From a virus: DNA of 40,733 nucleotides. Both the position numbers and the translations under genes were made by a program. Below the pieces are notes generated by a model. That model was not told the origin of the DNA, searched no databases, and saw only the letters and a list, made by a program, of their open reading frames with translations. This document shows, piece by piece, positions 8,382 through 31,954 of this stretch. The first letter of the stretch is position 1, and each line of letters begins with the position of its first letter. The stretch spans positions 1 through 40,733 of the IMG/VR virus record IMGVR_UViG_3300042433_000143; one strand, given 5' to 3'.

Positions 8382-8716
8382 TCTTGGGCTATCGTTTCGG
8401 CGGGGTCAACGGGCTGGCGAATCGGCCTCGCGTGGGGCTCCAGCTTGCACAGCACGCCATCCACGAAGGCGAAATGCCTGTTCACCTGAGCCACGTCCAT
8501 GAGAATCGCTGAACCTGGGGGGCAAGCAGGGGATTCGATGACTTCGTGAGGGGGGCTTGCGGGCACCGGAATCGGGCATCGGCCAATCACCCACTGCGCA
8601 AACTCTTCGGCTTGCCGGTCGCGCTCTTCCTCCATGCGCTTGAGTAGGTTCTTACTGCATCGCTCGTAGAAGTCGCCGCTCAGCTCATCAAACGTGACGG
8701 CCATGCCGGGATTCAT
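8378..8716 (-). CDS. Hypothetical protein after the holin
   Basis: A 112-residue soluble protein beginning at ATG 8716, which overlaps the holin stop as ATGA. The N-terminal half is a charged helix (YERCSKNLLKRMEEERDRQA). The C-terminal half is Pro-rich (CPIPVPASPPHEVIESPACP). In many phages the gene behind holin is a spanin, but this frame has no N-terminal membrane segment and no lipobox, so I do not call it one. The Pro-rich tract and cysteines are notable. Its place in the lysis cassette is the only hint to function. Confidence 0.55.
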   Translation of the reverse strand: MNPGMAVTFDELSGDFYERCSKNLLKRMEEERDRQAEEFAQWVIGRCPIPVPASPPHEVIESPACPPGSAILMDVAQVNRHFAFVDGVLCKLEPHARPIRQPVDPAETIAQE

Positions 8717-9219
8717 CCCACTTTCACCTCTTCGAGCGACTTCACAGCCTTGCCTTCGGCCTTCTTGAGCCACTTGCCAAGCTGGCCAAGTACCGGGAGG
8801 TCCATCTGAGCCGAGTTGATGAGCACAGAGCGCGCTTCGTGGAGGATCAGGATGGAGAGCACCGTGAGCATGGCACCGGCCACGCCGTCACGCTTGAGAC
8901 TGGGAGTGAGCGCCGCTGCTTGACTGATTCCCCAGATCACGGCGTACACCGCGACAATGGAGCACGAGTAGCCCACCATCTTGGCCACCGTGCGGCGGAA
9001 GAGCACGTTTCCATCGAACTTGCCCGCGTACCAGGCCGATGCGGCGCCGGTCACCAGATCGAGCAACAGAAGCACCGCCATCACAATGCCACCGATGACC
9101 ACACTCTCTGCGGGCATGAGCGAGGCGAGGCCACCAAGGGTCACTGCGGCCACGATCTCAACCGGACCAGCCACCAGGGCCTTCTTGGCCGCCATGGTTA
9201 CAGAGTGGGCGGTGATCAT
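8713..9219 (-). CDS. Holin, family 4-like
   Basis: A 168-residue membrane protein with at least three hydrophobic segments: about residues 20-32 (VEIVAAVTLGGLASLM), 37-60 (ESVVIGGIVMAVLLLLDLVT) and 85-105 (YSCSIVAVYAVIWGI), plus a weaker one near GAMLTVLSILILH. The pattern 'LLLDLVTGAASAWYAGKFDG' followed by 'KMVGYSCSIVAVY' is the signature of the phage holin family 4 / toxin-secretion holin group. It forms the inner-membrane lesion that releases the amidase encoded immediately upstream. The start ATG overlaps the amidase stop (ATGA). A basic, Lys-rich C-terminus is typical. Confidence 0.82.
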   Translation of the reverse strand: MITAHSVTMAAKKALVAGPVEIVAAVTLGGLASLMPAESVVIGGIVMAVLLLLDLVTGAASAWYAGKFDGNVLFRRTVAKMVGYSCSIVAVYAVIWGISQAAALTPSLKRDGVAGAMLTVLSILILHEARSVLINSAQMDLPVLGQLGKWLKKAEGKAVKSLEEVKVG

Positions 9220-9752
9220 CCGTTCCACTCCCAATTCGTGCTGGGGCGGTATCGCTTGAGGCCACGAGTGAAGTCTACGAAGAACCGATCGAATGACCAC
9301 CCTCTCGGGTCGCTCTTGCGCCCAGGGGACACCAGCCGGTGGGTCGAGATGAACTGAAGTGTGGGGATCGCGTGTTGCAATTCCTTGATGAGCCAAGCGC
9401 ACGCTTCTTCCTGCGCCTTAGTCACACGCTCATGGCCGTCGTTCATGTTGGCGAACGCAATGCCGATGGTGTAATCGTTGCAGTTGGGGCCATCCCACCC
9501 GCGAGATACACCGGCGTGCCACGCCCGCTTGGAGGTCGCCACGCACTTGAAGATCGTGCCGTCTCTCTCGATGATGTAGTGGTAGCTGGGCTTGGCGGGG
9601 GAACGTCGCAACCAGTCGATTGTGGAAGTGGCTGACGCCCCGGCTGTGCTGTGCAGGATGATCCCACTGATAGCCTTCTTGCGCCGGTTGGAGTTCAACT
9701 CCTTGGTGAGCGGGATGATGGTAGGCATCTCCCTTCGCGTGGGGGCTGGCAT
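9216..9752 (-). CDS. Endolysin, N-acetylmuramoyl-L-alanine amidase (Amidase_2)
   Basis: A 178-residue single-domain zinc amidase that cuts the bond between N-acetylmuramic acid and the stem peptide. Visible residues: first ligand in 'GIILHSTAGAS' (His about 34), 'YHYIIERDGTIFKC', 'AWHAGVS', second ligand in 'FISTHRL' (His about 138), and the 'GRKSDPRGWSFDRF' motif giving the third ligand Asp about 148 and the catalytic Lys. I use ATG 9752; TTG 9764 and ATG 9728 are also possible, and none has a well-spaced ribosome site. There is no cell-wall-binding domain and no signal peptide, so export depends on the adjacent holin. Confidence 0.88.
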   Translation of the reverse strand: MPAPTRREMPTIIPLTKELNSNRRKKAISGIILHSTAGASATSTIDWLRRSPAKPSYHYIIERDGTIFKCVATSKRAWHAGVSRGWDGPNCNDYTIGIAFANMNDGHERVTKAQEEACAWLIKELQHAIPTLQFISTHRLVSPGRKSDPRGWSFDRFFVDFTRGLKRYRPSTNWEWNG

Positions 9753-9767
9753 CGCGGGCGTCAACCT

Positions 9768-10778
9768 TTAGGCGAACACCGTGTCGATACTGTTCACGTA
9801 GTAGTCCAGCACAACCGCCGCTGCCGTGCCACCGTTGTTGGCGTAGTGGTGCCATGCCAGCAGGGCCGTACTCGCAGGCATGTCCGTGGTGATCACGCCC
9901 GAGGCCGTCGCTCCACTGACGATGTTGGTCACACGCCAGCCGATACGGTCGCTGTTAGGGGCAGCGAACAGCTCGAAGTCGTAGATCGCAGTGATGGAGT
10001 TCGCCGGGAAGGACGCGCCAAGGTTAATCTTCGTGCAGGTGCCCGCCCCGTCGTTATGCATGATCTGCATGTTCGTGTCCCCAGAGTCATTCCCCATGAG
10101 GATGCAGTTCGTGAGCGCTGACGGGCTTTGCGTGGTTGCAGTGGCACCAGTGGAGTTCCAGAGGCCCACAGCGGTGCGCTGGTTGGCTACGGCCGTATTC
10201 ATGCCCCAACGGGTGCGCATGTAGAAACCGCCGAAGCCCGGAGCATCCCCCCGGTAGCAGTTGAACACGGATGAACGAAGCTCAGAGGCAGAGTTTGCGG
10301 TGGCCGCTGAGGTGATGATCGCCCGGACCATGCCGGTCTTGCGGTCCACAGTCGCACTGATCGCCGGGTGAGACACCGTGCCCACCGCGGTCGGGGCCAA
10401 GGTGCCGATCATCGAGAACCCCGTGGTCCCAGACGGAAGGGTGATCTGCGTGCCACCAAGAGCCAGGCTTGACTGGAGCGGGAAGTCTGTCCCTTCCGGC
10501 CCTTGCACGTAAGGCAGACGCCGCCCCGCCCCAACTCTCGTGAAGAGCTGCGCGCCGGACGCAGGGGCTGAAGGCTTGGAGGCTTGGTCCACCAGCGAGA
10601 GAACCGGTACCGTGGGCGAGAACTCACGGTAAGGGAGCGAGTTCCATGCCGCCGTACCGTTGCCGATCTTCATCAGCTGTGTGTCGGTCTCGAAACCGAT
10701 CTCACCCGCGCCTAGAACCGGGTTATTGGCCGTCCAATTTGCCGCAGTGTCGCGGCGTTGTTGCATCCGAATGGGCAT
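9768..10778 (-). CDS. Tail fibre/receptor-binding protein with hub-type N-terminus
   Basis: A 336-residue virion protein. The N-terminus (MPIRMQQRRDTAANWTANNP, then VLGAGEIGFETDTQLMKIGN) is the well-known head of phage hyaluronidase/tail-fibre proteins that joins a fibre to the virion. The rest is Ser/Thr/Ala/Gly-rich with many beta strands and ends in a jelly-roll-like region (GWRVTNIVSGATASGVITT). It follows the collagen-like gene by one base, so both are probably parts of one fibre apparatus. A role in host recognition is inferred from the N-terminal module. Confidence 0.72.
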   Translation of the reverse strand: MPIRMQQRRDTAANWTANNPVLGAGEIGFETDTQLMKIGNGTAAWNSLPYREFSPTVPVLSLVDQASKPSAPASGAQLFTRVGAGRRLPYVQGPEGTDFPLQSSLALGGTQITLPSGTTGFSMIGTLAPTAVGTVSHPAISATVDRKTGMVRAIITSAATANSASELRSSVFNCYRGDAPGFGGFYMRTRWGMNTAVANQRTAVGLWNSTGATATTQSPSALTNCILMGNDSGDTNMQIMHNDGAGTCTKINLGASFPANSITAIYDFELFAAPNSDRIGWRVTNIVSGATASGVITTDMPASTALLAWHHYANNGGTAAAVVLDYYVNSIDTVFA

Positions 10779-18817: not shown

Positions 18818-19344
18818 CAGCTTTGGTTGGCCGCATTTTCAGCGGCTTCCTGTTGCCCAGGTTCGGATTCAGGTACAACCGGGGATGCGTGCGCTCCGAT
18901 TGTCTCTGAGAGGGGTTGCATAACGGCCTCGTTGCGCTTCACCGCACGGGGCCTTAGTTCTTCTGGGAGGTGCAGATATACGTTCTGCCGAGCAATCCCA
19001 ATTTCGCGGGCAATCTGAGTAGGATTCAGCCCTTTCCGCGCAAGCTCAATCACCCGGTCGCGATTTGCAACCCCGCCACCAGGTACCATGAGTTCCGCAT
19101 GTGCTCCAACCGTCTCTGAGAGGGGCGCACCGCAGGCCCCGTCGCTGTTCGAGAGCGCGGGGCCATTTCTTCGAGGGCGAGGGAAACTGATTCCAGCCTC
19201 TTCCAACACTGTGTAAATCGTGGGGCGACTTACGCCAAAAGCCCTCGCAAGGGAGACCACAGTCGGGGCACACCCCTTAGCCTCGCCACGCACGAACTCG
19301 GCAACGATTCCCGCTTTCTTGTCGTTGGTCAATCTTCGGACCAT
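18817..19344 (-). CDS. Double helix-turn-helix regulator, first gene of the leftward operon
   Basis: A 175-residue protein built from two units. Each has a recombinase-type helix-turn-helix (residues about 28-51, VVSLARAFGVSRPTIYTVLE; and 97-126, VIELARKGLNPTQIAREIGI) followed by a linker containing PLSET(V/I)GAHA (74-83 and 144-153). It has no catalytic domain, so it is a DNA-binding protein, not a recombinase. The start is ATG 19344, placed only 6 bases after the inferred -10 CATAAT, so the mRNA would be leaderless; upstream in-frame codons lie inside the promoter. By position it could be the Cro-like or delayed-early regulator that opposes CI. Confidence 0.72.
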   Translation of the reverse strand: MVRRLTNDKKAGIVAEFVRGEAKGCAPTVVSLARAFGVSRPTIYTVLEEAGISFPRPRRNGPALSNSDGACGAPLSETVGAHAELMVPGGGVANRDRVIELARKGLNPTQIAREIGIARQNVYLHLPEELRPRAVKRNEAVMQPLSETIGAHASPVVPESEPGQQEAAENAANQS

Positions 19345-19350
19345 GCCCGT

Positions 19351-19379
19351 ATTATGACCAGTCTTTTTTGACATGTCAA
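19351..19379 (-). promoter_or_regulatory. Leftward early promoter PL with operator
   Basis: On the minus strand a consensus -35 TTGACA (19379-19374), a 17-bp spacer and -10 CATAAT (19356-19351) precede the double helix-turn-helix gene. The -35 is half of the palindrome TTGACATGTCAA (19368-19379), so a dimer bound there would block it. The architecture CTTGACATGTCAA-11 bp-CATAAT is repeated at PR. The inferred start falls on the A of the ATG at 19344. Confidence 0.8.
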
Positions 19380-19380
19380 G
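19367..19380. promoter_or_regulatory. Operator OL, 12-bp palindrome
   Basis: Perfect palindrome TTGACATGTCAA, centre at 19373/19374. It overlaps the -35 of PL and lies about 40 bp upstream of the inferred cI transcription start, the position from which lambda CI activates PRM. An identical copy is at 20446-20457. Binding by CI is inferred, not shown. Confidence 0.75.
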
Positions 19381-19401
19381 AATTGGAGAGAAAAAAGGCC
19401 A

Positions 19402-19413
19402 TACTTTATTGCA
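19402..19413 (+). promoter_or_regulatory. Weak cI promoter (PRM-like), leaderless
   Basis: A -10-like TACTTT (19402-19407) is followed by exactly six bases and then the cI ATG at 19414, the same spacing as in PL. No good -35 exists at 16-18 bp upstream, so the promoter would need an activator. The operator centre lies at about -40. No Shine-Dalgarno precedes the ATG. This supports an autoactivated, leaderless cI transcript, but it is inference. Confidence 0.45.
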
Positions 19414-20076
19414 ATGCTGGCCCTGATGGCTCAGGACCCGAGGGTGGACACAATCAACCGGCTACTCGCCATGAGCGGGCTGTCGTTGCGGTGGTTGTCG
19501 CGCCAGGTCGGGGCCGAGCCCGCGACCGTCAGCAACATCCTCAACGGGAACACGCGGGTTCCGAGGGACCCGGGACTCATTGACCGGATGATGGACGCGC
19601 TGGATGCTGCTCGCCCGGACCTGAACAAGATCAAGCTCAGTCACCGAGGCATGGTGGTGATTCCCGTCTATCCCGGCCTCTCAGCCGGAGAGCCCGCCTA
19701 CACGATTGCGGACGTGTCCGAGGAACTGATACCGGAGCCTTCGGACGGGATCGAGCGATATGGCCGAATTGTGGCCGGTGACTCTATGACGCCGGTTTTT
19801 GAGCCAGGGGACGTGGCGATAATGAAGCCGACCGGCTCCGGCGTGGGGTTCGTGGTTCATGCCTACCGGGACGGGGAGGATGTCCTAAAGTGCGCCCGCG
19901 ACGTGAACGGACGATGCTCGCTCTACTCGTTCAATTCTGACTACCTACCGCTCGATGGCGAGGGGTGGAAGGTCAAGGCCGTCTGCGTGGGGATCATCCG
20001 CTACATGGGGCGCGGGCGCAAGCAGTTCATAGATGCGCCGAACGGATTCACTTGGGCCGACCGTGAAGGGATTTAG
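19414..20076 (+). CDS. cI: CI-like repressor, helix-turn-helix plus LexA/S24 domain
   Basis: A 220-residue repressor that keeps the prophage silent. The N-terminal helix-turn-helix spans residues about 22-62 (LSLRWLSRQVGAEPATVSNI). A linker with an Ala91-Gly92 cleavage pair (PGLSAGEPAY) precedes the S24 peptidase fold: Ser124 in 'VAGDSMTPVFEPGD' and Lys159 in 'RDGEDVLKCA'. So it should self-cleave on RecA activation, making the phage SOS-inducible. It reads rightward between two operators of identical sequence. A strong terminator follows at 20123-20145. The start is ATG 19414; ATG 19426 is the alternative. Confidence 0.9.
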   Translation: MLALMAQDPRVDTINRLLAMSGLSLRWLSRQVGAEPATVSNILNGNTRVPRDPGLIDRMMDALDAARPDLNKIKLSHRGMVVIPVYPGLSAGEPAYTIADVSEELIPEPSDGIERYGRIVAGDSMTPVFEPGDVAIMKPTGSGVGFVVHAYRDGEDVLKCARDVNGRCSLYSFNSDYLPLDGEGWKVKAVCVGIIRYMGRGRKQFIDAPNGFTWADREGI

Positions 20077-20122
20077 CGGGTAATATCCCGCTGCGACTTG
20101 CCCAGCCTACGGGGTGGGTTCG

Positions 20123-20145
20123 GGCTCCCTCCGGGGAGCCTTTTT
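20123..20145 (+). terminator. Rho-independent terminator of cI
   Basis: GGCTCCC (20123-20129), loop TCCG, GGGAGCC (20134-20140), then TTTTT: a perfect 7-bp stem with a T tract. It ends cI transcription before the convergent zinc-ribbon gene and before PR, which isolates the immunity region. Confidence 0.88.
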
Positions 20146-20148
20146 CGT

Positions 20149-20385
20149 TTACGGGGTCGGGCGTGAGTTGTTGCAGCTGATGACGATGAACAGGAATAGG
20201 CCAAGGCCGATGATCAGCGGGCCGAAGATGCTGATGCCAACGAACCAATTTGCGCACGCCCACTTGTTAGCCTGCCTGCCCGGGTGGTGGCCGCAGTTAG
20301 CACACCGCCAAAGGTAGGCACGCCCAATCTGGAATTGCTCCCAGTCTCGGAGCCCACACACCTGACACTTCTCAATCGGTTTCAT
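20149..20385 (-). CDS. Zinc-ribbon membrane protein in the immunity region
   Basis: A 78-residue protein from ATG 20385. The N-terminal zinc ribbon has two CxxC knuckles (CQVC at 7-10, CANC at 28-31). One transmembrane helix follows at residues about 46-70 (WFVGISIFGPLIIGLGLFLF) with a short tail. The gene points away from PR and converges on cI. A TATCAT -10-like box 10 bases before the ATG would again give an almost leaderless message; there is no Shine-Dalgarno. The frame extends upstream to 20457, across the operator, which is less likely to be translated. Its place suggests superinfection exclusion or sensing, unproven. Confidence 0.62.
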   Translation of the reverse strand: MKPIEKCQVCGLRDWEQFQIGRAYLWRCANCGHHPGRQANKWACANWFVGISIFGPLIIGLGLFLFIVISCNNSRPTP

Positions 20386-20444
20386 AAGTAGGCCAATGAT
20401 ACAGGCCTGCTCATGGACTTTTTTTGAGTATTTTCTCGGGAGTT

Positions 20445-20474
20445 CTTGACATGTCAAGCAAGTGATGGCATAAT
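20445..20474 (+). promoter_or_regulatory. Rightward early promoter PR with operator
   Basis: -35 TTGACA (20446-20451), 17-bp spacer, -10 CATAAT (20469-20474) with a TG extended -10. The -35 lies within the palindrome CTTGACATGTCAAG (20445-20458), identical in its 12-bp core to the one at PL. The start should be near 20481. It drives the recombination-integration operon. Confidence 0.82.
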
Positions 20475-20480
20475 ATCAAT

Positions 20481-20499
20481 ACCGGGCTCGAACCCCGGT
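20481..20499 (+). other. Stem-loop at the 5' end of the PR transcript
   Basis: ACCGGG (20481-20486) and CCCGGT (20494-20499) form a 6-bp stem with a 7-base loop, starting at or within a base or two of the inferred PR transcription start. The Shine-Dalgarno GGTGGAG of the first gene begins inside the 3' arm. It could protect the 5' end of the mRNA or limit translation of the leader gene. Confidence 0.5.
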
Positions 20500-20511
20500 G
20501 GAGATAACTAA

Positions 20512-20679
20512 GTGAACCAAATCGCCAACGGACTGCTGACCGGCCTCGGTGCCGCAGTGGCCGCTCTCTACTTCGGCTGGTGCCTCAGCACTGGCATCAA
20601 GGCAGACCAGGAATACCTGGAAGCCAATGACGCGCGAATCGAGCGCGAGATTCAAGCCCGCGCGGGGTGGTCCAAGTGA
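20512..20679 (+). CDS. Fifty-five-residue membrane leader-gene product
   Basis: A short frame from GTG 20512, preceded by GGTGGAGATAACTAA, the best ribosome site of the region. The product starts VNQIANGLLTGLGAAVAALY, with one transmembrane or amphipathic helix at residues 8-25, then a charged helix (DQEYLEANDARIEREIQARA). It is the first gene after PR and is GTGA-coupled to the next gene. I recognise no family. First-gene position means it is made immediately after infection or induction, so a host-directed or antitermination role is possible. Confidence 0.65.
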   Translation: MNQIANGLLTGLGAAVAALYFGWCLSTGIKADQEYLEANDARIEREIQARAGWSK

Positions 20680-20915
20680 ACCGGTGCCCCGAAGGTTGCG
20701 GAGTCGCCTTGGTCGAGGACGTGATGGAGATCGTGAACAACGGCAAGTGCCCGCACGACCCGGACGCCACCTTTGACGAAGTGGACTCTCTCCGATGCCC
20801 CTCCTGCGGCTATGAGGTCGAAGCTGAAGCAATGCTCCCGGCCTTTGTTCGGGAAGATGGCCGCGAGGCACCGAGCGAGCAGGAGTTCGACGTGTTTGCG
20901 GGGGTGGGGCGATGA
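20676..20915 (+). CDS. Small cysteine-rich, zinc-ribbon-like protein
   Basis: A 79-residue protein from GTG 20676 (VNRCPEGCGVALVEDVMEIV). Cysteines come in clusters: CPEGC near the start, a lone Cys in 'NNGKCPHDPD', and CPSCGYEVEAE at about 55. This is the pattern of a treble-clef or zinc ribbon. The C-terminus is acidic. It could also start at ATG 20667, but GTG 20676 has GGGGTGG upstream and overlaps the previous stop. No family recognised; such proteins often bind nucleic acid or RNA polymerase. Confidence 0.6.
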   Translation: MNRCPEGCGVALVEDVMEIVNNGKCPHDPDATFDEVDSLRCPSCGYEVEAEAMLPAFVREDGREAPSEQEFDVFAGVGR

Positions 20916-21163
20916 GCCCCGCCGCCGAGCAGGTCACCTTCGACGGCATCCTGGCTTCCATCAAGCGGGAGACGAACATCAACCTGCTTCGCCGCCAAAT
21001 CGAGTGCTTGGTGCCTGAGCACCTGACCTTCGACGCCCCCACGCGGGACGATGAGGTCCGTGCCCTGAAGGCCCTGCAAGGTGAGCTTGAGCACGTTGCG
21101 AGCCGGGTTCAGGAGCTTCTGGACGACGCCAAGGTGGCCGATGACGATGAGGAGGTGGCCTGA
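20912..21163 (+). CDS. Hypothetical small helical protein before the exonuclease
   Basis: An 83-residue helical, acidic protein (MSPAAEQVTFDGILASIKRE, LRRQIECLVPEHLTFDAPTR, VQELLDDAKVADDDEEVA). The C-terminal acidic tail may interact with DNA-binding partners. It overlaps genes on both sides (ATGA upstream, TGATGG into the YqaJ gene), so it belongs to the recombination block. No family recognised. Confidence 0.55.
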   Translation: MSPAAEQVTFDGILASIKRETNINLLRRQIECLVPEHLTFDAPTRDDEVRALKALQGELEHVASRVQELLDDAKVADDDEEVA

Positions 21164-22116
21164 TGGCCGCCCCTTCCATCTCAACGCGCACCGCTCGCAC
21201 GGAGACGAAGGCCAAACAAGCCTGGCTCGAAGAGCGACGCACCTACCTGGGCGCCACGGACATCAGCGCGATTATGGGGATCAACCCCTACCAGTCGCCG
21301 CATGATGTTTGGCTTGCCAAGAAGGGCCTCAAGGAGGATGAGTCGAAGATCGCGATGCGCGTCGGTACCTACCTGGAGCCGTTCATCGCCAAGGAGTTCG
21401 AGCACCAGCACAGCGTGAAGGTTCGCCGCTCGCGCCTGTACCGCCACAGCCGCGTTGGCTTCCTGGCCTGCAACCCAGACCGCGAGTTCACGCTCGACGT
21501 GGACGGGGTGAAAGTGCCGGCCCTGCTTGAGTGCAAGTCGGTCGGTTACTTTGCCAGCGCGAACTTCGGCCAAGACGGTTCGGACCAGATCCCCGAGCAC
21601 TACATGATGCAAATCCTGTGGCAGATGATCATCACCGGCCGCAAGGTTGTAGCCCTGGCCGCGCTCGTGGACAATCGTGAGCTGCGGGTGTTCTACTACA
21701 CCCTTGACCCGAACTACTCGGGCTGGGCTCACGTGTTCGATGAGGTCACCGCGAAGCGCGTGTTCAACTTCGCTATTCGCTGGTGGGCTGAGCACATCGA
21801 AGGCGACAAGGAGCCCGAGATGACCGGCCACGAGTCGGATCACACCTACCTGCAGAAGGTTCGGCCCTCCTACGAGAACGGGCTTCTGACCAACGCCGAT
21901 GAGGCCACAGACGCCCTGTGTGTCCGGCTTGGCAAGGCCAAGACCCGTGCCGACCGGGCTCAGTACGTCGCCTCTGAGCTTGCCAACCGCATCAAGGCTT
22001 ACATGGCCAAGGAGCGAGTGAGCGAGCTTGAGACGACAGTCGGCACCTTCACATGGAAGACCAACGTGCGCGGAGTCGCCACGTTCAAGACCCCCTTTAA
22101 GAGCAACAAGGCATGA
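21163..22116 (+). CDS. YqaJ/lambda-exonuclease family recombination nuclease
   Basis: A 317-residue nuclease of the PD-(D/E)XK fold that resects double-stranded ends to give 3' single strands for annealing. Hallmarks: 'YLGATDISAIMGINPYQSPH' and 'DVWLAKKG' near residues 28-54, 'VGTYLEPFIAKEFE', 'CNPDREFTLD' and 'LLECKSVGYF' (the D...E-x-K catalytic site), and 'EHYMMQILWQMIIT' (the conserved Gln helix). It is followed with a 4-bp overlap by recT, making the usual exonuclease-annealase pair. It substitutes for RecBCD-type processing during phage replication. Confidence 0.9.
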   Translation: MAAPSISTRTARTETKAKQAWLEERRTYLGATDISAIMGINPYQSPHDVWLAKKGLKEDESKIAMRVGTYLEPFIAKEFEHQHSVKVRRSRLYRHSRVGFLACNPDREFTLDVDGVKVPALLECKSVGYFASANFGQDGSDQIPEHYMMQILWQMIITGRKVVALAALVDNRELRVFYYTLDPNYSGWAHVFDEVTAKRVFNFAIRWWAEHIEGDKEPEMTGHESDHTYLQKVRPSYENGLLTNADEATDALCVRLGKAKTRADRAQYVASELANRIKAYMAKERVSELETTVGTFTWKTNVRGVATFKTPFKSNKA

Positions 22117-22958
22117 ACAACGCCAATAAGATCAAGACACTTCAGGACCAGCTGAACAAGTCAGCCGGGACTCTCTCCAAGGTGGCCGCATCGAAGGTCA
22201 CCGCATCCCAACTCATCAAGATCGCGCTGAACGCGGCCATGCGGAACAGCACTCTCTTGCAGTGCGACGCTCGGTCCATCGTGCGGGCTGTGATGCAGGG
22301 CGCGGAGCTTGGCCTTGTGCCCGGCTCCGCCCTGAACCAAGCCTATCTGGTGCCATTCAAGAACAAGACGAACGGAACGTGGGAAGCGCAGTTGATCATC
22401 TCGGCGCAGGGCCTCGCTGAACTGGCGTACCGCTCTGGCATGGTCACGAGCATCACGGTCGAGTGCGTCTACCGAGGCGACGTGTTTGAGTTCGAGCAAG
22501 GTCTGAACCCCAAGCTGCGGCACATCCCTGCTGGCGAAACCGATGACCCCAGGGACATCACTCACGCCTACACGGTTGTGACCCTGAAGGACGGTGCTCA
22601 GGTGTTCAAGGTGATGACTCGCTCCCAGATCGACCGGATCATGAAGAAGAGCCCCAGCGTCAAATCTGGCTCCATGAGCCCGTGGTCTACGGACTACGAA
22701 GAGATGGCCCGCAAGACGGTGGCCAAGAACGCCTTCAAGTACGTGCCGAAGAGCATCGAAGTGGCAAAAGCGGCCGCGCTCGACTCCGCCCAGCAATCAG
22801 AGGACTGGTCGGACGTGGAGTTCGAGATTCCCGAAGCCATGCCGGATCTGCCCGAGGAAACCTCAAGCGCCGTCCAGGCCCTTGAGTCGAAGATTGCAGA
22901 GCGAACTGGTGACGTGGCAGACGAAGAAGACTTCGAGCCGAGTGGTGACGACGAATGA
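22113..22958 (+). CDS. recT: RecT single-strand annealing protein
   Basis: A 281-residue RecT/RecT-Redbeta superfamily protein that anneals complementary single strands. Family signature: 'SQLIKIALNAAMRNSTLLQC', 'SIVRAVMQGAELGLVPGSAL', 'NQAYLVPFKNK', 'QLIISAQGLAELAYRSGMVT', 'VKSGSMSPWSTDYEEMARKT'. The acidic C-terminal tail (residues about 230-281) is typical. The start ATG overlaps the exonuclease stop (ATGA), consistent with a working pair. With the SSB gene downstream this gives a complete recombination set. Confidence 0.92.
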   Translation: MNNANKIKTLQDQLNKSAGTLSKVAASKVTASQLIKIALNAAMRNSTLLQCDARSIVRAVMQGAELGLVPGSALNQAYLVPFKNKTNGTWEAQLIISAQGLAELAYRSGMVTSITVECVYRGDVFEFEQGLNPKLRHIPAGETDDPRDITHAYTVVTLKDGAQVFKVMTRSQIDRIMKKSPSVKSGSMSPWSTDYEEMARKTVAKNAFKYVPKSIEVAKAAALDSAQQSEDWSDVEFEIPEAMPDLPEETSSAVQALESKIAERTGDVADEEDFEPSGDDE

Positions 22959-23593
22959 AGAGCTTTATCGCTCTCGACTTCGAGGGGTCCGGCAAGGACC
23001 CCCGCCGCCACGCGCCCACGCAGATCGGCCTGGCCCTGTTCGAGGAGGACACGGTAGTGGCCACGCTGGAGACCCTGATCGGCCCGCCGAGGCACTACAA
23101 GACGAAGGCCATCACGCGCGAGTACGACGCCACGGCCCTCGAACTGACCGGCTTCACGATGAAGCAGCTTCTTGCGGCCCCGGAGCCCGCCGAGGTGTGT
23201 TCGATGGTCCGGTCCTGGGTGCGAGAGCACGCCATCGGGAACCTGCCGCTGGTGGCCTACAACGCTGGTGGCTACGACTGGCCGATGATGCGAGAACTCG
23301 CGTACTTGGGCGGCTACTATGACCAAAGGGCGCGGCGGCGTGAGCCTGCAAGCCTGGGCCTCTCTCATCGTTGGGTGTGCGCTCAAGAGCTTGCGAGAGC
23401 CAAGATCGAGCCCGAGGAAGTGGAGGCGTACTCGCTTGACCAAGTGGCCAAAGTGCTTGGCCTTGATGGTCGCACTACAGAGCTTCACGGAGCCCTTGAG
23501 GATGCCATTCTGGCCGGGCGCGTCCTGCGTGCGCTCAGCAAACCCAGGGAACTCTCTGGCACGTTGCTGGAAGAGGCTGAGGTGGTGGCGTGA
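22955..23593 (+). CDS. DnaQ-like DEDDh 3'-5' exonuclease
   Basis: A 212-residue exonuclease of the RNase H/DnaQ fold. Exo I: 'FIALDFEGSGKDP' (Asp8, Glu10). Exo II: 'LVAYNAGGYDWPMM' (Asp108). Exo III: 'LHGALEDAILAGRV' (His178, Asp183), which makes it the DEDDh subtype. It may proofread, trim recombination intermediates or degrade host DNA. Downstream of RecT it probably serves recombination or nucleotide recycling. It starts at ATG 22955 (ATGA overlap with recT). Confidence 0.87.
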   Translation: MKSFIALDFEGSGKDPRRHAPTQIGLALFEEDTVVATLETLIGPPRHYKTKAITREYDATALELTGFTMKQLLAAPEPAEVCSMVRSWVREHAIGNLPLVAYNAGGYDWPMMRELAYLGGYYDQRARRREPASLGLSHRWVCAQELARAKIEPEEVEAYSLDQVAKVLGLDGRTTELHGALEDAILAGRVLRALSKPRELSGTLLEEAEVVA

Positions 23594-24303
23594 AGGTGCG
23601 CCCCATCCTGTTCAACGGGGAGATGGTGCGGGCCATCCTCGAAGGTCGCAAGACGCAGACCAGGCGTGTTATCAAAGACTTCCCCGAATATCACAAAGGG
23701 ACTGAGGCTCCGCAAGCAAAGCGAGGAGAGCCGCCGCGTCACCCATCCTCGTACTTCGACTGTTATTGCAACAAGCCAAGGACAGAAGCCAACCCAAGGG
23801 GAATGTCTGACCGATGGTGCTGGTGGGATGAATACGACAGGATGGGAAACGGCTGGCTCAAATGCCCCTTCGGTGTCCCTGGCGACCGCCTTTGGGTGCG
23901 CGAGACGTGGGGTGACGGGGAAGAAAACAACTGCGAACCGGGCGTTTACTACCGAGCCACCGACCCCGCATGGGATAAGGAAGAAACCGGGTTCCGGTGG
24001 AAGCCCTCCATCCATATGCCCCGCTGGGCTTCACGCATCTCGCTGGAAGTCACGGGCGTTCGCGTGGAGCGGTTGAATGACATCAGCGAGGCAGACGCCG
24101 AGGCGGAAGGTGCCTCGAAAGTGCTCTGGTTTTGCCCTGCGGGAAAACCCGAATGCCGCATGAATCTAGGCAAGGACGTCTTTGACATCTCCTACATCAA
24201 CGGCTTTGCAAATGTCTGGGAGTCCATCAACGGCCCCGGCTCGTGGGCAGAGAACCCGTGGGTCTGGGTGCTGGAGTTCAAGCGGATTGAGGTCCCCGCA
24301 TGA
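23590..24303 (+). CDS. ASCH/PUA-like phage protein
   Basis: A 237-residue protein of a widespread phage family that begins 'KVRPILFNGEMVRAILEGRK' and 'TQTRRVIK' and continues with 'GDRLWVRETWG', 'GVYYRATDP', 'KPSIHMPRWASRISLEVTGV' and a C-terminal 'VWESINGPGSW...NPWVWVLEFKRI'. The layout is that of ASCH (PUA-like) domains, thought to bind RNA or modified nucleotides. Homologs are sometimes labelled morphogenetic proteins, a label I would not trust. It starts at a GTG overlapping the exonuclease stop. The exact role is unknown. Confidence 0.75.
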   Translation: MKVRPILFNGEMVRAILEGRKTQTRRVIKDFPEYHKGTEAPQAKRGEPPRHPSSYFDCYCNKPRTEANPRGMSDRWCWWDEYDRMGNGWLKCPFGVPGDRLWVRETWGDGEENNCEPGVYYRATDPAWDKEETGFRWKPSIHMPRWASRISLEVTGVRVERLNDISEADAEAEGASKVLWFCPAGKPECRMNLGKDVFDISYINGFANVWESINGPGSWAENPWVWVLEFKRIEVPA

Positions 24304-24500
24304 AACGCCGCCACATCCACCTCGACAAAGTGACCGCGCTAGGCACCTGCCCGGCCTCTGGGAAGATGAAGTACGGCACTCGCGCTGAAGCCTCTGTGAA
24401 GCGGCGCAAGCAACTCACCGACCAAGGCAAGGTTTACCGTTGCCCCGACTGCCACTGCTGGCACATTTCCTCTGAACGGAGGTCCAAAACACATGACTGA
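24300..24500 (+). CDS. Small zinc-finger-like phage protein
   Basis: A 66-residue basic protein (MKRRHIHLDKVTALGTCPAS) with one Cys in 'GTCPASGKMKYGT' and a second cluster 'YRCPDCHCWHISSERRS' (CxxCxCxH). This 'Y.C..C..WH.S' ending is common in small phage proteins encoded near recombination genes. A zinc-bound fold that touches nucleic acid is likely. It is ATGA-coupled to the ASCH gene. Specific function unknown. Confidence 0.6.
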   Translation: MKRRHIHLDKVTALGTCPASGKMKYGTRAEASVKRRKQLTDQGKVYRCPDCHCWHISSERRSKTHD

Positions 24501-24678
24501 AACCGCAATCGTTGCTCAGGCCCGCTATGTGCGGGAACTTCAGAAATCCTACTACAAGGGCGAGAAGCATCTGCTTTGGGAGTGCAAGACCCAAGAGAAG
24601 AAGCTCGATGAGATGATCGAAGAGCTTGACCGTGGCCAAGTATCCATCATGGACATGGCCTCCGAGGTGACCGCGTGA
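24493..24678 (+). CDS. Hypothetical small helical protein
   Basis: A 61-residue protein (MTETAIVAQARYVRELQKSY, KGEKHLLWECKTQEKKLDEM) predicted to be a helical hairpin or coiled coil. Its ATG overlaps the preceding stop and its stop overlaps the ssb GTG. No family recognised. The direct coupling to ssb suggests a role in the same replication-recombination step. Confidence 0.55.
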   Translation: MTETAIVAQARYVRELQKSYYKGEKHLLWECKTQEKKLDEMIEELDRGQVSIMDMASEVTA

Positions 24679-25058
24679 ACACGAACGTCGTTGTTATCTC
24701 CGGCCGCGTCGGCAAGAAGCCCGAGCAACGCCTCACCACGGGCGGAACGGAGGTCACTGAGTTCTCCATCGCCGTGGACAAACGCAAGAAGGAGGATCCG
24801 CCGATGTGGTTCCGCATCACGGCCTTCGGCAAACAGGCTGAGTTCGCGAATCAGTTTCTCGACAAAGGCCGCCAGGTCATCATCTCGGGCCGCTTAGAGC
24901 AGCGCAAGTACGAAGATCGTGACGGCAAGAGCCGGGAGTCCATCTCGATTGTCGCAGAGCAAATCGAGGCCGTGGGTTCTCGGACTGATGGCGTGAAGCA
25001 GGTGCAAGGCACCCAAGACATTCATGGAGAGGAAGATGACTTTGACCCATTCTCATAG
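24675..25058 (+). CDS. ssb: Single-stranded DNA-binding protein
   Basis: A 127-residue SSB. The OB fold covers residues 1-105 (VVVISGRVGKKPEQRLTTGG, EFSIAVDKRKKEDPPMWFRI, FLDKGRQVIISGRLEQRKYE). The short linker ends in the acidic tip EEDDFDPFS, which binds partner proteins (one extra Ser after the usual terminal Phe). It coats single strands made by the exonuclease and replication fork. The start is GTG 24675, overlapping the previous stop as GTGA; the 3' end is overlapped by the HNH-AP2 gene for 23 bp. Confidence 0.93.
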   Translation: MNTNVVVISGRVGKKPEQRLTTGGTEVTEFSIAVDKRKKEDPPMWFRITAFGKQAEFANQFLDKGRQVIISGRLEQRKYEDRDGKSRESISIVAEQIEAVGSRTDGVKQVQGTQDIHGEEDDFDPFS

Positions 25059-25614
25059 CCATAAGCTCTCGATGGCTAGACGCAAGCTAGGATCGCAAAT
25101 CAGGCTCATTGGCGACGGTGCCGCAGAAGTGGAACTCACCCAGGGTCTTGTAGCAATCATCGATCAAGAAGACATTCCCCTAGTCGCACCGCACAAATGG
25201 CATGTGGCAAGAGGAAACAAGGACCTCTGCTATGCCAGGTGCAACGGAGACAGAAAGGCTGTGCCCATGCACCGCCTCTTGTTTGGAGACATTCCTGCTG
25301 ATGTTCAGGTGGACCATATCGACCGGAACGGGCTCAACAACCGCAGAAGCAACTTGCGGCTATCTAATGCCACATTCCAGAAGCTAAACCAATCGGTGCG
25401 CCGAGACTGCACCAGCGGGTGCACTGGAGTCCATTTGCGGCCAGACGGCAAGTGGCAGGCCAGAATCTCGGTGAACGGCAGGCGCGTAAGCCTTGGCCAC
25501 TTTGCCACATTCAATGACGCACAGTTCTGCATGGAGTCGGTGCGTTCAATCGTGGATGAGCTTATGCTCCAGCTTCCAACTGTAGCCAAAGTGCTTGAGA
25601 GGGAAGCGTCGTGA
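25036..25614 (+). CDS. HNH homing-type endonuclease with AP2 DNA-binding domain
   Basis: A 192-residue nuclease. Residues about 45-110 form the HNH part: 'PLVAPHKWHVARG', 'VPMHRLLFG', 'QVDHIDRNGLNNRRSNLRLS'. Residues about 128-170 (GCTGVHLRPDGKWQARISVN, GRRVSLGHFATFNDA) are an AP2 domain. This pair is characteristic of free-standing homing endonucleases. The start is ATG 25036, with GGAGAGG upstream, inside the ssb end. The DNA is poorer in GC than nearby genes, which fits a mobile gene that settled beside ssb, though without breaking it. Confidence 0.85.
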   Translation: MTLTHSHSHKLSMARRKLGSQIRLIGDGAAEVELTQGLVAIIDQEDIPLVAPHKWHVARGNKDLCYARCNGDRKAVPMHRLLFGDIPADVQVDHIDRNGLNNRRSNLRLSNATFQKLNQSVRRDCTSGCTGVHLRPDGKWQARISVNGRRVSLGHFATFNDAQFCMESVRSIVDELMLQLPTVAKVLEREAS

Positions 25615-25949
25615 CAGGCAACCCCACCCTCACCCCTGAACCCACTCTCTCCCTCGGCCACGGCTGGGGAGAGGCCCTGTGCGTGATCACCTTCCCTGGC
25701 GGCGTCTACGCGGCAAATCAGGCCACTCCGCACGGGCCTGACTCCTTCGAGGTTCACGGCCTGGCCGTGCATCTGGATGAGGCGTCTGCGCAGGATTACC
25801 TCACCTTCCACCGTGAGAGCCTGCCACCGGGCGGGGAGATTGTAAGCAAGAGCTACGAGGCCGCGCGAGAGATCGCAGTTGGCAAGGGGCTCGGCGCGCT
25901 GTTGCTCTTTCGCGGGGCTGTGATCGTGGATGTGGAGTACCTGAAATGA
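25611..25949 (+). CDS. Hypothetical protein
   Basis: A 112-residue protein starting at GTG 25611 (MTGNPTLTPEPTLSLGHGWG). The first 15 residues are Pro/Thr-rich. The rest looks like a compact alpha/beta domain (ALCVITFPGGVYAANQATPH, EAAREIAVGKGLGALLLFRG, AVIVDVEYLK). I recognise no family. GTGA and ATGA overlaps lock it into the rightward operon. Confidence 0.55.
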   Translation: MTGNPTLTPEPTLSLGHGWGEALCVITFPGGVYAANQATPHGPDSFEVHGLAVHLDEASAQDYLTFHRESLPPGGEIVSKSYEAAREIAVGKGLGALLLFRGAVIVDVEYLK

Positions 25950-26338
25950 CGGACAAAGAAAAGCTGAAGGCGATTAAGGATGCGATAGGCTCACCGCTCA
26001 ACAACGGACTCTGCTTTGATGAAATCATCCGTGTTCTAAACGATGAACCCGACCCCCACCCCCTCGGCTCGGTGCGCTTTGACGAGGCGACGGAGGAACA
26101 GTTTGCGGAGTTCTGGGAAGCGGCTGGGTTCGTGATTGGGGGCAATACCCATGTTGGCATTTGGGCTGATAAGTTGGTCAATGGATTCCCGGATGAACTA
26201 ACGGTATCAAAAAATGGTGCGATTGATATGTATGCGGGGGCTACAAGCATACATCTCGGACGGCTCCCCACCTTCCAAGAAGCCCTGGACGCGCTCAACG
26301 AACTGGCCGCGACCAAGATCATGGGAGGGTGGGAATGA
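25946..26338 (+). CDS. Hypothetical protein
   Basis: A 130-residue acidic protein (MTDKEKLKAIKDAIGSPLNN, RFDEATEEQFAEFWEAAGFV, LPTFQEALDALNELAATKIM). The part coding residues about 60-100 is distinctly richer in A and T than the flanks. I recognise no family. Its ends overlap both neighbours by 4 bp (ATGA). Confidence 0.55.
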   Translation: MTDKEKLKAIKDAIGSPLNNGLCFDEIIRVLNDEPDPHPLGSVRFDEATEEQFAEFWEAAGFVIGGNTHVGIWADKLVNGFPDELTVSKNGAIDMYAGATSIHLGRLPTFQEALDALNELAATKIMGGWE

Positions 26339-26535
26339 GCCGCTACGCCAAGCAGCGACTCACCCTGCTTCAGTACGGGTGGGATGACTACACGAACTGG
26401 AAACGTGGCGGCGGGCCGGAGCCTGAGAACCCGTATCAGTGCCTCGGCTTTGCGAAGCGGGCGTGGCTCGAAGGCTACATGATGGCCAAGAGGGGAGAAC
26501 CGAGGCCGGAAAAGTTGGGGGAGGTGGTGCGCTGA
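26335..26535 (+). CDS. Small protein with Rmf/CrpP-like motif
   Basis: A 66-residue basic protein from ATG 26335. The segment 'ENPYQCLGFAKRAWLEGYMM' followed by AKRGEP resembles the 'NPY....xxxxxWxxGWxxA' motif of ribosome modulation factor and CrpP-like small proteins, common as phage accessory genes. A role in binding ribosomes or in drug or nucleotide modification cannot be shown from this. Coupled by ATGA to the gene upstream and by TGATG to the next. Confidence 0.5.
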   Translation: MSRYAKQRLTLLQYGWDDYTNWKRGGGPEPENPYQCLGFAKRAWLEGYMMAKRGEPRPEKLGEVVR

Positions 26536-27047
26536 TGAGCCTGAAGAACAAGGCCATGAAGGCGGCTCGTATCCTTGCCGGGAATGCCGTTTCGCCCGAG
26601 CATCACGCGAACGTGGCGAGCATGATTGCCCGCGAAGCTCAGGCACTCTCCATGGCCGATGGGATGCACTACACGCCTACCCATATCAGCAACAAGTTCA
26701 CGAAGGATGAGCTTCGGGTTATGCCAGACACCGTGGTTCCTTGGTGCCGGTTGCGGATTGGAGACACGGTGGTTCTCATGGGGCTCTCTCACGCGAACAA
26801 GGACATGATGGCCTCTGAGGGGCAAGATGTTGAGTTCGACTTCAGAGGGCCAGACGCCCCCAATGCAGTCATTCTTGCTTACTACGAGGATGGCTCGTAT
26901 TTCCCTAGCTCCGACGATGTGATGATCGTGGCCACCGATGCCGCGCCCAACACTCTGCTCGACCAAAGGGGAATGGAGTCGGCTATGAGAGGTGGCCTTC
27001 TTGATCAGTTGGTGCGACTGTTGATCAAGCACGGGCGAATGGAGTAA
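26535..27047 (+). CDS. Hypothetical protein
   Basis: A 170-residue protein from ATG 26535. It has an N-terminal helical part (NKAMKAARILAGNAVSPEHH) and a central beta barrel-like part (CRLRIGDTVVLMGLSHANKD, DVEFDFRGPDAPNAVILAYY), then a helical C-terminus (LLDQLVRLLIKHGRME). No family recognised. It is the last gene before the excisionase-integrase pair and is TAATG-coupled to it. Confidence 0.55.
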   Translation: MSLKNKAMKAARILAGNAVSPEHHANVASMIAREAQALSMADGMHYTPTHISNKFTKDELRVMPDTVVPWCRLRIGDTVVLMGLSHANKDMMASEGQDVEFDFRGPDAPNAVILAYYEDGSYFPSSDDVMIVATDAAPNTLLDQRGMESAMRGGLLDQLVRLLIKHGRME

Positions 27048-27433
27048 TGCCCTCCACCCCGCTCCCTCGACTCGCCGTCACCGCCGCCAACGCGGCCACC
27101 ATCCTGGGGGTCCCCAAGGGGACCTTCCAGGGGCTCGTAGATGCGGGGCTCATCACCCCGCTCCCTTATCTCGGAACCTACGCGATGTCCGATTTGAAGG
27201 GCTTGATTCAGGCACTTAGAACACAGCAAAACAGCACGAATGGAACGGATTTACAGGGGAATCAAGATCACAGGGAGAGTTCAGACGAAGGGCAAGATCG
27301 AGGCCCGCTGGACCTTCGACAAGAAGCGGAGCTCTTGCTACGGCGCAACATGGGAGGAAGCAGTCGAGAAAGCGATTCTGCGCCTGAAGCCGAGCCTCGC
27401 CGCCCGCGACGCGGAAAGCCTTCAGCGGCGTAG
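27047..27433 (+). CDS. xis: Excisionase-like small helix-turn-helix protein
   Basis: A 128-residue frame. Only the first 65 residues look like a folded protein: 'LAVTAANAATILGVPKGTFQ' and 'GLVDAGLITPLPYLGTYAMS' form a MerR/AlpA-type winged helix-turn-helix, the fold of excisionases. Residues after about 64 are Gln/Asn/Arg-rich and simply follow from overlap with the integrase gene (194 bp). The gene lies directly before int, the usual xis-int order. It likely binds attP arms to favour excision. The long overlap could couple translation of the two. Confidence 0.6.
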   Translation: MPSTPLPRLAVTAANAATILGVPKGTFQGLVDAGLITPLPYLGTYAMSDLKGLIQALRTQQNSTNGTDLQGNQDHRESSDEGQDRGPLDLRQEAELLLRRNMGGSSRESDSAPEAEPRRPRRGKPSAA

Positions 27434-28328
27434 CCGTTCCGTCATTATCTGGTTCGCTGGCGAGCTGAGCCAGCTCTACGCCGACCGTTCACCCGCCACC
27501 CGCGAGCAAGCCGCCTGGGCCATTCAAACGCTCTGCGATTGCACGCCGGACGCTCTTCTGCTTGATGACCTCACCCTTGGGGCCGTGCTGGGAATCTGGC
27601 GCGAAGCCTGCGCGCGCTACCCGAAGCCCAACACCCGGAGAACGCTGCGGAAGTTCTTGGTGAGAGCGTGCGGGCTGTGGGCCAGGTCAGGAATCACACC
27701 CTACGATTACACGCGGGAGATCAAGGCGCCGGCCGCCACGCGAAAGGAGATCGTCCCCACCGCCGATGAAGCCATGCGGCTGTGGCTCGCTCACCGGGAG
27801 CACTACCTTGGCCCCCTGCTGTTCTGTGAGTTCGTCCTTGGGATGCGATCAAGCGAAGCCCGCGCCATCACGCTCGATATGCTGGGCGAGGATACGCTTC
27901 TGGTGCCAGGCACCAAGACGAAGGCCGCACACCGCACGCTGGCCCTCTCTCCGGCCATCAGCGCCGTCTTGCACCACTACGCCGCTGGCCAGCGCAGATA
28001 CCTCTGCGGCAACTCTCAGGGCGGATTCCTGCGGGACAACATCACGAGAGACCTGCGGCCCCTCTACGCCGCCGCTGGGGTGCCTTACGCGGCTCAGCAC
28101 GGCCTTCGCCATGCCTTTGCGACCGGTGCCGAGCTTTTGGGGATGCCTCGCTCCGTGCGCATGGCCATCATGGGGCAGTCGGTGACTCACGAAATCGGAG
28201 ACCTCTATGTTCATCCGGCCCCGGTAAATGTACGGGATTGGCTCACGATTTGGGAGAACTCGCTTGGCCTCGAAGCGCGAAATCTGTGGGGTACCGCTGG
28301 GGTACCGGAAATCAGGTTGCCGAAGTAA
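27240..28328 (+). CDS. int: Tyrosine integrase
   Basis: A 362-residue site-specific recombinase that joins attP to the host tRNA gene. The N-terminal 55 residues (GIKITGRVQTKGKIEARWTF, YGATWEEAVEKAI) resemble the three-strand-plus-helix arm-binding domain. The core-binding domain follows at about 70-165. The catalytic domain has Arg203 (GMRSSEAR), Lys226 or Lys228 (GTKTKAAHRTL), His287-x-x-Arg290 (HGLRHAFATG), His317 and nucleophile Tyr323 (HEIGDLYVHP). All active-site residues are present. The 3' end of the gene contains two arm-type repeats TGGGGTACC. Start ATG 27240 lies inside xis. Confidence 0.9.
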   Translation: MERIYRGIKITGRVQTKGKIEARWTFDKKRSSCYGATWEEAVEKAILRLKPSLAARDAESLQRRSRSVIIWFAGELSQLYADRSPATREQAAWAIQTLCDCTPDALLLDDLTLGAVLGIWREACARYPKPNTRRTLRKFLVRACGLWARSGITPYDYTREIKAPAATRKEIVPTADEAMRLWLAHREHYLGPLLFCEFVLGMRSSEARAITLDMLGEDTLLVPGTKTKAAHRTLALSPAISAVLHHYAAGQRRYLCGNSQGGFLRDNITRDLRPLYAAAGVPYAAQHGLRHAFATGAELLGMPRSVRMAIMGQSVTHEIGDLYVHPAPVNVRDWLTIWENSLGLEARNLWGTAGVPEIRLPK

Positions 28329-30507: not shown

Positions 30508-31929
30508 TCAAATCCAGGGGTCCATCAGATACAGTTCGTTGCGCTGGAGCGTGATGACCGAGGAACTGTTCCCGGCGTTCTGCATCTGGAATCGGTTGGC
30601 TGGGAACCCAGCAGGCACCGAAAACAGAACCGCAAACTCAAGATTCGCAGGGATTTCCACCGAGTCAATCCGCATCTGCCATGCGTGGGAGGCCGCCACG
30701 CTGGCCGGGTCGCGGAACCCGAAGTAGCTGGAAGCGTTGGGAACGCCGCCGCTCGACTGGATGCCCCCGACCCATAGGTAAGTGGAGCCCGCCGCCGCAA
30801 TGGCCGAGGTGGTGTGCGCCAGCGCGTTTGCCGAGCCGCGAGTATGGGCAAACGTGTTGCCCACAGTGCCCGAATTGACCGCAGAACTCGCACCCGTGCC
30901 GCTCGTGGTCCAGCTTGTTGGGGTGACCGCGCCGGAGTTGAGATTGAAGATCGGGTTGGGGAAGAGCCCAGCTTTGCCCGCAGCGTTGGAGAACGGCAAG
31001 AGCGAGGCCGGGATTCTCGGGAACTCCGCTAGAATCAGGTCCGCAATCCGCTGACCGCGCGCCCGGTTGGCATCGTGGGTGAGGTGGGTGTTATCTCGGA
31101 ACAGGCCCGCCGTGCCGAGGCCATCCACGCCCACGCACGGCCCCCAAGTGTCCTCAAAGGGGATTCGGTACTCGACCGCAAGGCGTCGGTACGCTTCGTT
31201 CAGATTGTCGTAGGCCGCGCCTGTAGTGACTCGGTTGGGCAGTACCCCGCTAATGATCGGAGTGGTGCCGACTTCGAGCAACCCTTCGATCATGCGCCGG
31301 GTGTTGGCGATGGTCACCGAGGTGGCAATCGCGGCCCCAATGTCGTTGGTGCCCGCGTCAATCACGCAGAACGTAGCCCGCCGCGCACGCGCCGTGGCCA
31401 GGTGATTCGCCAGCACTTGAGCTGATGTAAGCCCCGCTTCACCCGCGACCCCTGCATAAGCAAGGCGAGCCCGCGAGTAACCAGACGCCCAGAAGATGAC
31501 GTTGTGCTGGTTCACCGTGCCATGGCGGCCCGTGGCCAGGTTCTGTTGATCGTTGCCCGCCGAAGTGGTCACGCCGCTTGCGAGTTGCGAGTTGCCCAGC
31601 CCGATGATCGTCGCAATGCGGCTCAAAGGGCGGGCCGAATCAAAAGGGGAGACGTCGATATTCACCGCCGCGCCCACAAAGCGGATTTCCTCGAAGGAGC
31701 GAACGTCCATCGTGATGATGCGTCCTGCGTTGAAGTAAAGCCGCCCGCTGGAATCCTCGGCGGGTCGGTCGCTCGTAATCCGGTCGTGAATCTTGTCGAA
31801 CTGGCTACTCCCAAGAGAGCCCTCAATCGTGATTGGGCCGACGCCCGCGTTGAAGCGGATGCTGACCTGCTGAGACGTAATGACCGAAAGAGCTTGACCG
31901 TCCGTGAGGGCGTGAGTGGTCGCGGGCAT
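30508..31929 (-). CDS. SGNH/GDSL-type esterase with C-terminal beta domain (tail-associated)
   Basis: A 473-residue protein. The SGNH blocks are readable: nucleophile Ser114 in 'IIGLGNSQLASG' (GNS instead of GDS), block II-like Gly in 'YAGVAGEAGLTS', block III 'DAGTNDIG' (Asn195), and block V 'RDNTHLTHDANRARG' (Asp279, His282). Residues about 320-473 form a beta-rich module (TPTSWTTSGTGASSAVNSGT) like a carbohydrate-binding domain. It lies among fibre and baseplate genes, so it probably deacetylates surface glycans during adsorption. The start is ATG 31929; GTG 31947 is an alternative. Confidence 0.82.
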   Translation of the reverse strand: MPATTHALTDGQALSVITSQQVSIRFNAGVGPITIEGSLGSSQFDKIHDRITSDRPAEDSSGRLYFNAGRIITMDVRSFEEIRFVGAAVNIDVSPFDSARPLSRIATIIGLGNSQLASGVTTSAGNDQQNLATGRHGTVNQHNVIFWASGYSRARLAYAGVAGEAGLTSAQVLANHLATARARRATFCVIDAGTNDIGAAIATSVTIANTRRMIEGLLEVGTTPIISGVLPNRVTTGAAYDNLNEAYRRLAVEYRIPFEDTWGPCVGVDGLGTAGLFRDNTHLTHDANRARGQRIADLILAEFPRIPASLLPFSNAAGKAGLFPNPIFNLNSGAVTPTSWTTSGTGASSAVNSGTVGNTFAHTRGSANALAHTTSAIAAAGSTYLWVGGIQSSGGVPNASSYFGFRDPASVAASHAWQMRIDSVEIPANLEFAVLFSVPAGFPANRFQMQNAGNSSSVITLQRNELYLMDPWI

Positions 31930-31954
31930 GACCGCCTCTGCCCTCACGTTCAGC

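Follow-up and report, generated by a model that had tools for sequence, protein, structure and literature searches.

Paired palindromes within two outward promoters flank the repressor gene of an uncultivated phage: a probable immunity region with the lambda layout in mirror image

Does a short palindrome that stands once on either side of a repressor gene, each time within an outward-facing promoter, mark the operators of that repressor, and what kind of lysogeny switch would have a single such site per promoter? This question is raised by a virus record of 40,733 bases, the whole of which we analysed and which we will call the window. Judging from sequence comparison, we consider it very likely that the locus serves a temperate phage as its immunity region, in which a dimer of the repressor P0001 on each copy of TTGACATGTCAA would occlude the leftward and rightward early promoters (P_L and P_R), and in which cleavage of P0001 upon damage would open both of them.

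The record holds exactly two copies of TTGACATGTCAA, at 19368-19379 and 20446-20457. The left putative operator (19368..19379, no strand assigned) is an exact 12-bp palindrome between P_L and the repressor gene, whereas on the right the symmetry extends to an exact 14-bp palindrome, CTTGACATGTCAAG (20445..20458, no strand assigned); they are the positional counterparts of the lambda OR and OL, respectively, and their centres are 1078 bp apart. Both palindromes provide the -35 box of a promoter that points away from the repressor gene, as CTTGACATGTCAA followed by 11 bp and CATAAT is located at 19380-19351 on the minus strand and at 20445-20474 on the plus strand. In P_L (19351..19379, minus strand), the -35 box TTGACA (19379-19374) is separated by a 17-bp spacer from the -10 box CATAAT (19356-19351), and in P_R (20446..20474, plus strand) the same TTGACA and 17-bp spacer precede a TGG extended -10 and CATAAT. 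The initial annotation had described these two sites, and its positions, its 17-bp spacer and its consensus -35 box were all reproduced. Each promoter agrees with 11 of the 12 positions of a sigma-70-type consensus, which may not be that of the host, and the two are the top promoter-like sites within 18.3-22.2 kb. When up to 3 mismatches are allowed, the operator has 7 matches in the record against 9.7 expected, two of them exact and five with 3 mismatches, which is the chance level. Thus, with two sites and no excess of degenerate copies in the record, tandem operators at each promoter were not found.

The arrangement is rare by chance, but not in all of its parts. TTGACA-N17-CATAAT was absent from all 500 dinucleotide shuffles of the window, and the relaxed pattern TTGACA-N16-18-[TC]A[TA][AG]AT, observed 2 times, has a mean of 0.028 per dinucleotide shuffle. 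The repeat of a palindrome is in itself less special, since some repeated 12-bp palindrome was present in 29 of the 500 shuffles, so that the weight rests on the joint occurrence of palindrome and promoter at these positions and in this orientation. The two promoters also resemble each other beyond the palindrome: TTTTCTC-N5-TTCTTGACATGTCAA...CATAATA can be aligned in both, including TGG(n)CATAATA, the motif TTTTCTC-N5-TTCTTGACA has 2 occurrences against 0.08 expected, and an alignment of the flanks in opposite orientation scores higher than any of 1000 shuffles. This extension into TTTTCTC and the -10 box would also suit a strong early promoter that is present twice, through duplication or selection, with an incidental palindrome and a repressor that acts elsewhere. 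Indeed, the -35 consensus makes up either half of the palindrome, so that selection on the promoter could by itself account for part of the repeat, and TTGACATGTCAA-N12-ATAAT is found in 29 other viral contigs, with one copy each in the fetched stretch and the flanking pair in none; these contigs were chosen by the promoter pattern, which makes them uninformative on conservation. We nevertheless hold such an explanation to be very unlikely, because no other repeated palindrome was seen flanking this repressor and because, in the close relative discussed below, both palindromes have been swapped for another pair together with the repressor, while the flanks were kept.

The gene enclosed by the two sites encodes P0001 (19414..20076, plus strand, 220 aa), which has an N-terminal HTH and an S24 domain. 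Its profile matches are to the transcriptional repressor family phrog_4 (3e-17) and to PF00717 (3.9e-6), and its structural model, of moderate confidence (mean pLDDT 75), is matched by Foldseek to LexA bound to DNA (3jso, 2.6e-7) and to the lambda repressor (3bdn, 3.0e-6). By alignment, Ala91-Gly92, Ser124 and Lys159 fall in the LexA pattern, so that P0001 displays the cleavage site, the Ser, the Lys and the fold of the self-cleaving S24 repressors of the LexA/CI type, and looks self-cleavable. The cI gene that the initial annotation had placed between the sites is therefore confirmed as CI/LexA-type, by the S24 peptidase and HTH domains and by a model resembling LexA and the lambda repressor. 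At the level of sequence, tblastn against phages gave weak matches only, of 25-35%, to LexA/CI-like repressors, and a sequence search of solved structures with P0001 returned none, the structural matches having come from the fold search.

From these elements we propose the following mechanism. P0001 (19414-20076) would bind as a dimer to TTGACATGTCAA at either end of the cassette and, as the palindromes overlap the -35 boxes of the two early promoters, a single dimer bound at each site would exclude RNA polymerase from P_L and P_R. Silencing P_L on the replication side and P_R on the recombination and integration side would bring about lysogeny and superinfection immunity; upon DNA damage, the RecA-stimulated cleavage that the Ala-Gly site, Ser and Lys of P0001 suggest would open both promoters together.

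The evidence that bears most directly on this proposal comes from the single close relative found, L040, a record of 42,558 bases from another metagenome. L040 and the window share many long blocks of 81-99% identity on both sides of the cassette, the flanks being up to 96-100% identical, and their identity drops to background only over ~19064-20500, a stretch that begins within the first gene on the left and ends in the leader of the first gene on the right. The L040 repressor is 21% identical to P0001, and the palindrome TTGACACnnGTGTCA is present there in exactly two copies, on either side of this repressor, each of them containing the -35 box of an outward promoter. The left operator of the window is swapped for TTGACACGGGTGTCA at the same place, and the right one for TTGACACTTGTGTCA. 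The window holds 0 copies of the L040 operator, the fetched parts of the L040 record hold 0 copies of the window operator and, of the 13 viral contigs that carry the L040 operator, L040 alone has two copies in the fetched stretches. L040 thus has a new repressor and a new operator pair between conserved flanks, and the repressor and its putative operators swap together, like the lambdoid imm regions. Of all the evidence gathered, this joint replacement speaks most strongly for assigning the palindromes to the enclosed repressor as its operators, a reading to which L040 lends strong and independent support. The search of related phages for a conserved pair, which the initial annotation had suggested, hence recovers the arrangement in one close relative only, where the sequence of the pair is different. 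As relatives were found by protein patterns, further cassettes may exist beyond those seen.

The L040 exchange also bears on the identity of the binding protein. A short palindrome over a -35 box is a LexA-like arrangement and the model of the phage repressor is itself LexA-like, which would fit sites bound by the host LexA instead of the phage repressor, so that the SOS response would act directly on early transcription. The host LexA would, however, be superfluous in a phage that encodes an S24 repressor of its own, and L040, which is mostly the same DNA and presumably has an allied host, carries a different pair that changed along with its repressor. We have rejected the host LexA as the binder because operator and phage repressor change together, and the chance that it is involved appears minimal.

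P0001 being the preferred binder, the boundaries of the exchange give some indication of how the cassette moves. An intrinsic terminator follows the repressor gene (20122..20146, plus strand, 8-bp stem and T tail), and in this region 66 bp are 97% identical in L040 though both adjoining genes differ, which suggests that cassettes recombine there too. As for the L040 repressor (9288-9902, minus strand), it has an Ala in place of the S24 nucleophile Ser, and neither the Lys nor the Ala-Gly site is present. This repressor probably does not cleave itself and, if so, two related phages would differ in induction.

More distant relatives are less telling. The repressor of L003 is ~38% identical to P0001 and has outward promoters on both sides (TTGTAA-17-TACAAT and TTGTAT-17-TAAGAT); its flanks have a common word, which is weak (p about 0.005) and placed differently relative to the two promoters, so that L003 is only suggestive as a second sequence test of paired operators. 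In L044, only the left side is visible, the right one lying beyond the contig end. A search at the DNA level gave no relatives in the annotated phage collection, the RecT relatives have different repressor regions and, over the stretch fetched, are without such a palindrome, and a search of the genome collection gave one partial and irrelevant match, and no host. As to the 29 contigs mentioned above, about a dozen of them (L005, L006, L015, L016, L021, L022, L024, L027-L031 and L033) form one unrelated group of about 53% GC, in which the promoter directly precedes a small Cys-rich gene (zinc/HTH; an HTH protein in those read), with one copy per fetched locus.

The left operator may have a second role, in the expression of the repressor itself. 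A candidate repressor promoter lies at 19394..19414 (plus strand), with CATACT (19400-19405) or TACTTT (19402-19407) as its -10 box and without a good -35 box. The candidate start is at the repressor ATG or within 2 nt of it, which puts the centre of the left operator at about -39 to -41, and the lambda CI activates PRM from close to that spacing (~39-41 bp upstream). An operator ~40 bp upstream of a probable start devoid of a -35 box would probably autoregulate cI as well, either through activation, as at the lambda PRM, or through repression; positive autoregulation is plausible by this analogy, and negative autoregulation may also apply.

The two promoters point towards distinct gene sets, which substantiates the two early operons of the initial annotation: the replication initiator, RusA, ParB-like and HNH genes lie to the left, and the RecE, RecT, SSB and integrase genes to the right. 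In order, the leftward genes encode the HTH protein P0002, a ParB-like protein, RusA, an HNH protein, a replication initiation protein and a methyltransferase, before the packaging and head genes. The rightward operon (20512..28328, plus strand) comprises small genes, then RecE-like, RecT-like, exonuclease, SSB, HNH and integrase genes. P0002 (18817..19344, minus strand, 175 aa) occupies the cro position, and its ATG starts 6 nt past the -10 box of P_L. As the transcript would start at ~19344 if the start distance is normal, its mRNA is probably leaderless. Exactly 6 nt separate the leftward -10 box from the start codon of the gene that follows it in all four phages considered, namely the window (CATAAT-ACGGGC-ATG), L003 (TACAAT-CCTGGT-ATG), L040 and L044 (TACTGT-GCTGTT-GTG), which predicts a conserved leaderless early mRNA across these four related phages.

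P0002 is made of two HTH units, through an internal repeat of two copies of an HTH-PLSETxGAHA unit. Its versions in L040, L044 and L003 are shorter, with a single HTH, and its N-terminal HTH copy lies inside the block replaced in L040, as if the cassette exchange had joined an incoming HTH copy in frame to the resident one. Encoded at the cro position, first under P_L and divergent from cI, the HTH protein P0002 might be a Cro-like counter-repressor for which the palindromes are (also) the target, CI and P0002 competing for both sites as CI and Cro do in lambda. That the block replaced in L040 takes in its N-terminal HTH half, as cro lies within the lambdoid imm regions, is in keeping with this. 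However, the families that P0002 matches are of the resolvase and winged-HTH types and not Cro, no Cro homologue being found as the first gene divergent from cI, and the L040 homologue retains only the conserved second HTH despite a different operator. We find such a competition unlikely, and P0002 is the positional analogue of cro only.

With P0001 retained as the protein that would bind both sites, does their full repression require that they be joined in a loop of ~1.08 kb? Identical single sites flank cI, and the CI proteins of lambda and HK022 loop between OL and OR, single lambda operators looping detectably (PMC8053113). Yet this single-operator looping is weak in lambda: it is 5-fold below the two-operator form, itself 2-fold below the full sites, hence about tenfold overall (PMC8053113). 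Moreover, the spacing is not kept, as it is 1078 bp in the window and ~1.67 kb in L040. A required loop is therefore possible, if rather doubtful.

On the right side, a small accessory gene (20149..20385, minus strand, 78 aa) is the only one between the terminator and the right operator. It is convergent with cI, its product is zinc-ribbon-like with a hydrophobic stretch, and a family search with this product gave no match. The other arm of the right palindrome supplies a possible inward promoter (20430..20457, minus strand) directed towards this gene, with TTGACA, 16 bp and GAAAAT (10 of 12 consensus positions), so that the right operator may govern a divergent pair made of P_R and this inward promoter. 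Downstream of P_R, the 5' leader of the rightward mRNA contains a 7-bp hairpin (20480..20500, plus strand), where the replaced block ends; its fold (-10.5 kcal/mol, z -1.25) is not significant. We considered this hairpin as a tRNA or att remnant and rejected it, there being no tRNA, no Rfam match and no significant fold.

The layout can be compared with that of lambda, whose gene order is general knowledge. As in lambda and the lambdoid phages (HK022, N15/phiKO2), a repressor gene, here of the HTH and S24 type, is flanked by two operator regions, each overlapping an outward early promoter; the putative operators here are identical palindromes that give both -35 boxes. The replication operon is on the cI-divergent side, behind a small HTH gene, and the recombination and integrase operon is on the other side, beyond the far operator. 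An accessory gene sits between cI and the far operator (the rex position), the CI is of the S24 type with the self-cleavage pattern, and the whole cassette is exchanged between relatives. The differences are that lambda has three operators per promoter against one here, that the map is mirrored, that no Cro homologue occupies the cro position, and that the accessory gene is convergent with cI instead of co-transcribed with it. N15/phiKO2 likewise differ, with three plus two operators (PMC4997575) against one per promoter here. The initial annotation, which had called the region simpler than the triple operators of lambda, was right about the number of operators and overlooked an otherwise mirror-image lambda layout. 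The region is a minimal, mirror-image variant of the lambda-type immunity region, neither a strict member of it nor a new kind of system.

Simple operators are in themselves not new, as they are present in BPs, TP901-1 and PY54. In the mycobacteriophage BPs and its relatives, gp33 is the repressor and CGACATATGTCG the operator, and the target of this repressor includes a 12-bp palindrome located at the early lytic promoter (PMC4557955). There, unlike here, the divergent Prep and PR share one intergenic region, the full sites are two palindrome-like halves, several further sites exist in the genome and immunity depends on integration, while the window has two sites only, one on each side of cI. 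The BPs type, with attP within the repressor gene and no S24, does not correspond either to what we found, namely an S24 domain and an integrase gene 7 kb away, at the far end of the rightward operon. The CI-Mor switch of TP901-1/phi13 also has single palindromic CI operators at early promoters, and its cro position is taken by a small partner gene. However, the OR, OL and OD of TP901-1 are all on one side of cI, around the divergent PR/PL and in mor (PMC7250872), and its CI is without a peptidase domain, whereas P0001 has S24. PY54 has, as here, one operator located between cI and the divergent gene on the lytic side (PMC4997575), but it is a telomere phage in which a true Cro acts at that operator, and the available part of its description reports no identical second site flanking cI.

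We would give not quite an even chance to the fuller picture, that of a lambda-type switch cut down to one dimer per early promoter, without tandem cooperativity, whose sharpness would come from autoregulation at the left site, from ~1.1-kb looping or from a non-Cro, two-HTH counter-regulator, and which would move as an exchangeable cassette within a lineage of uncultivated phages. The principle is ordinary, being the logic of lambda. For a temperate lineage to which the phage collection searched offered no close relatives, the locus makes the immunity code legible, from the repressor and its operator to the two early promoters, and L040 provides a ready heteroimmune partner, as read from sequence, with nearly unchanged flanks. 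This pair of phages constitutes a natural test of a lysogeny switch with one operator per promoter, in which the adjacent-site cooperativity of lambda is unavailable, and of how a repressor and its operators change together.

The content of the accessory position also varies with the cassette. In L040, a gene for a GDSL lipase/acylhydrolase with a borderline PEP-CTERM motif (8395-9198, plus strand) lies between the repressor and the right operator, where it takes the place and orientation of the 78-aa accessory gene of the window. A second GDSL-lipase-type protein is encoded in the window itself, at 30508-31947 (minus strand), among the tail-side genes.
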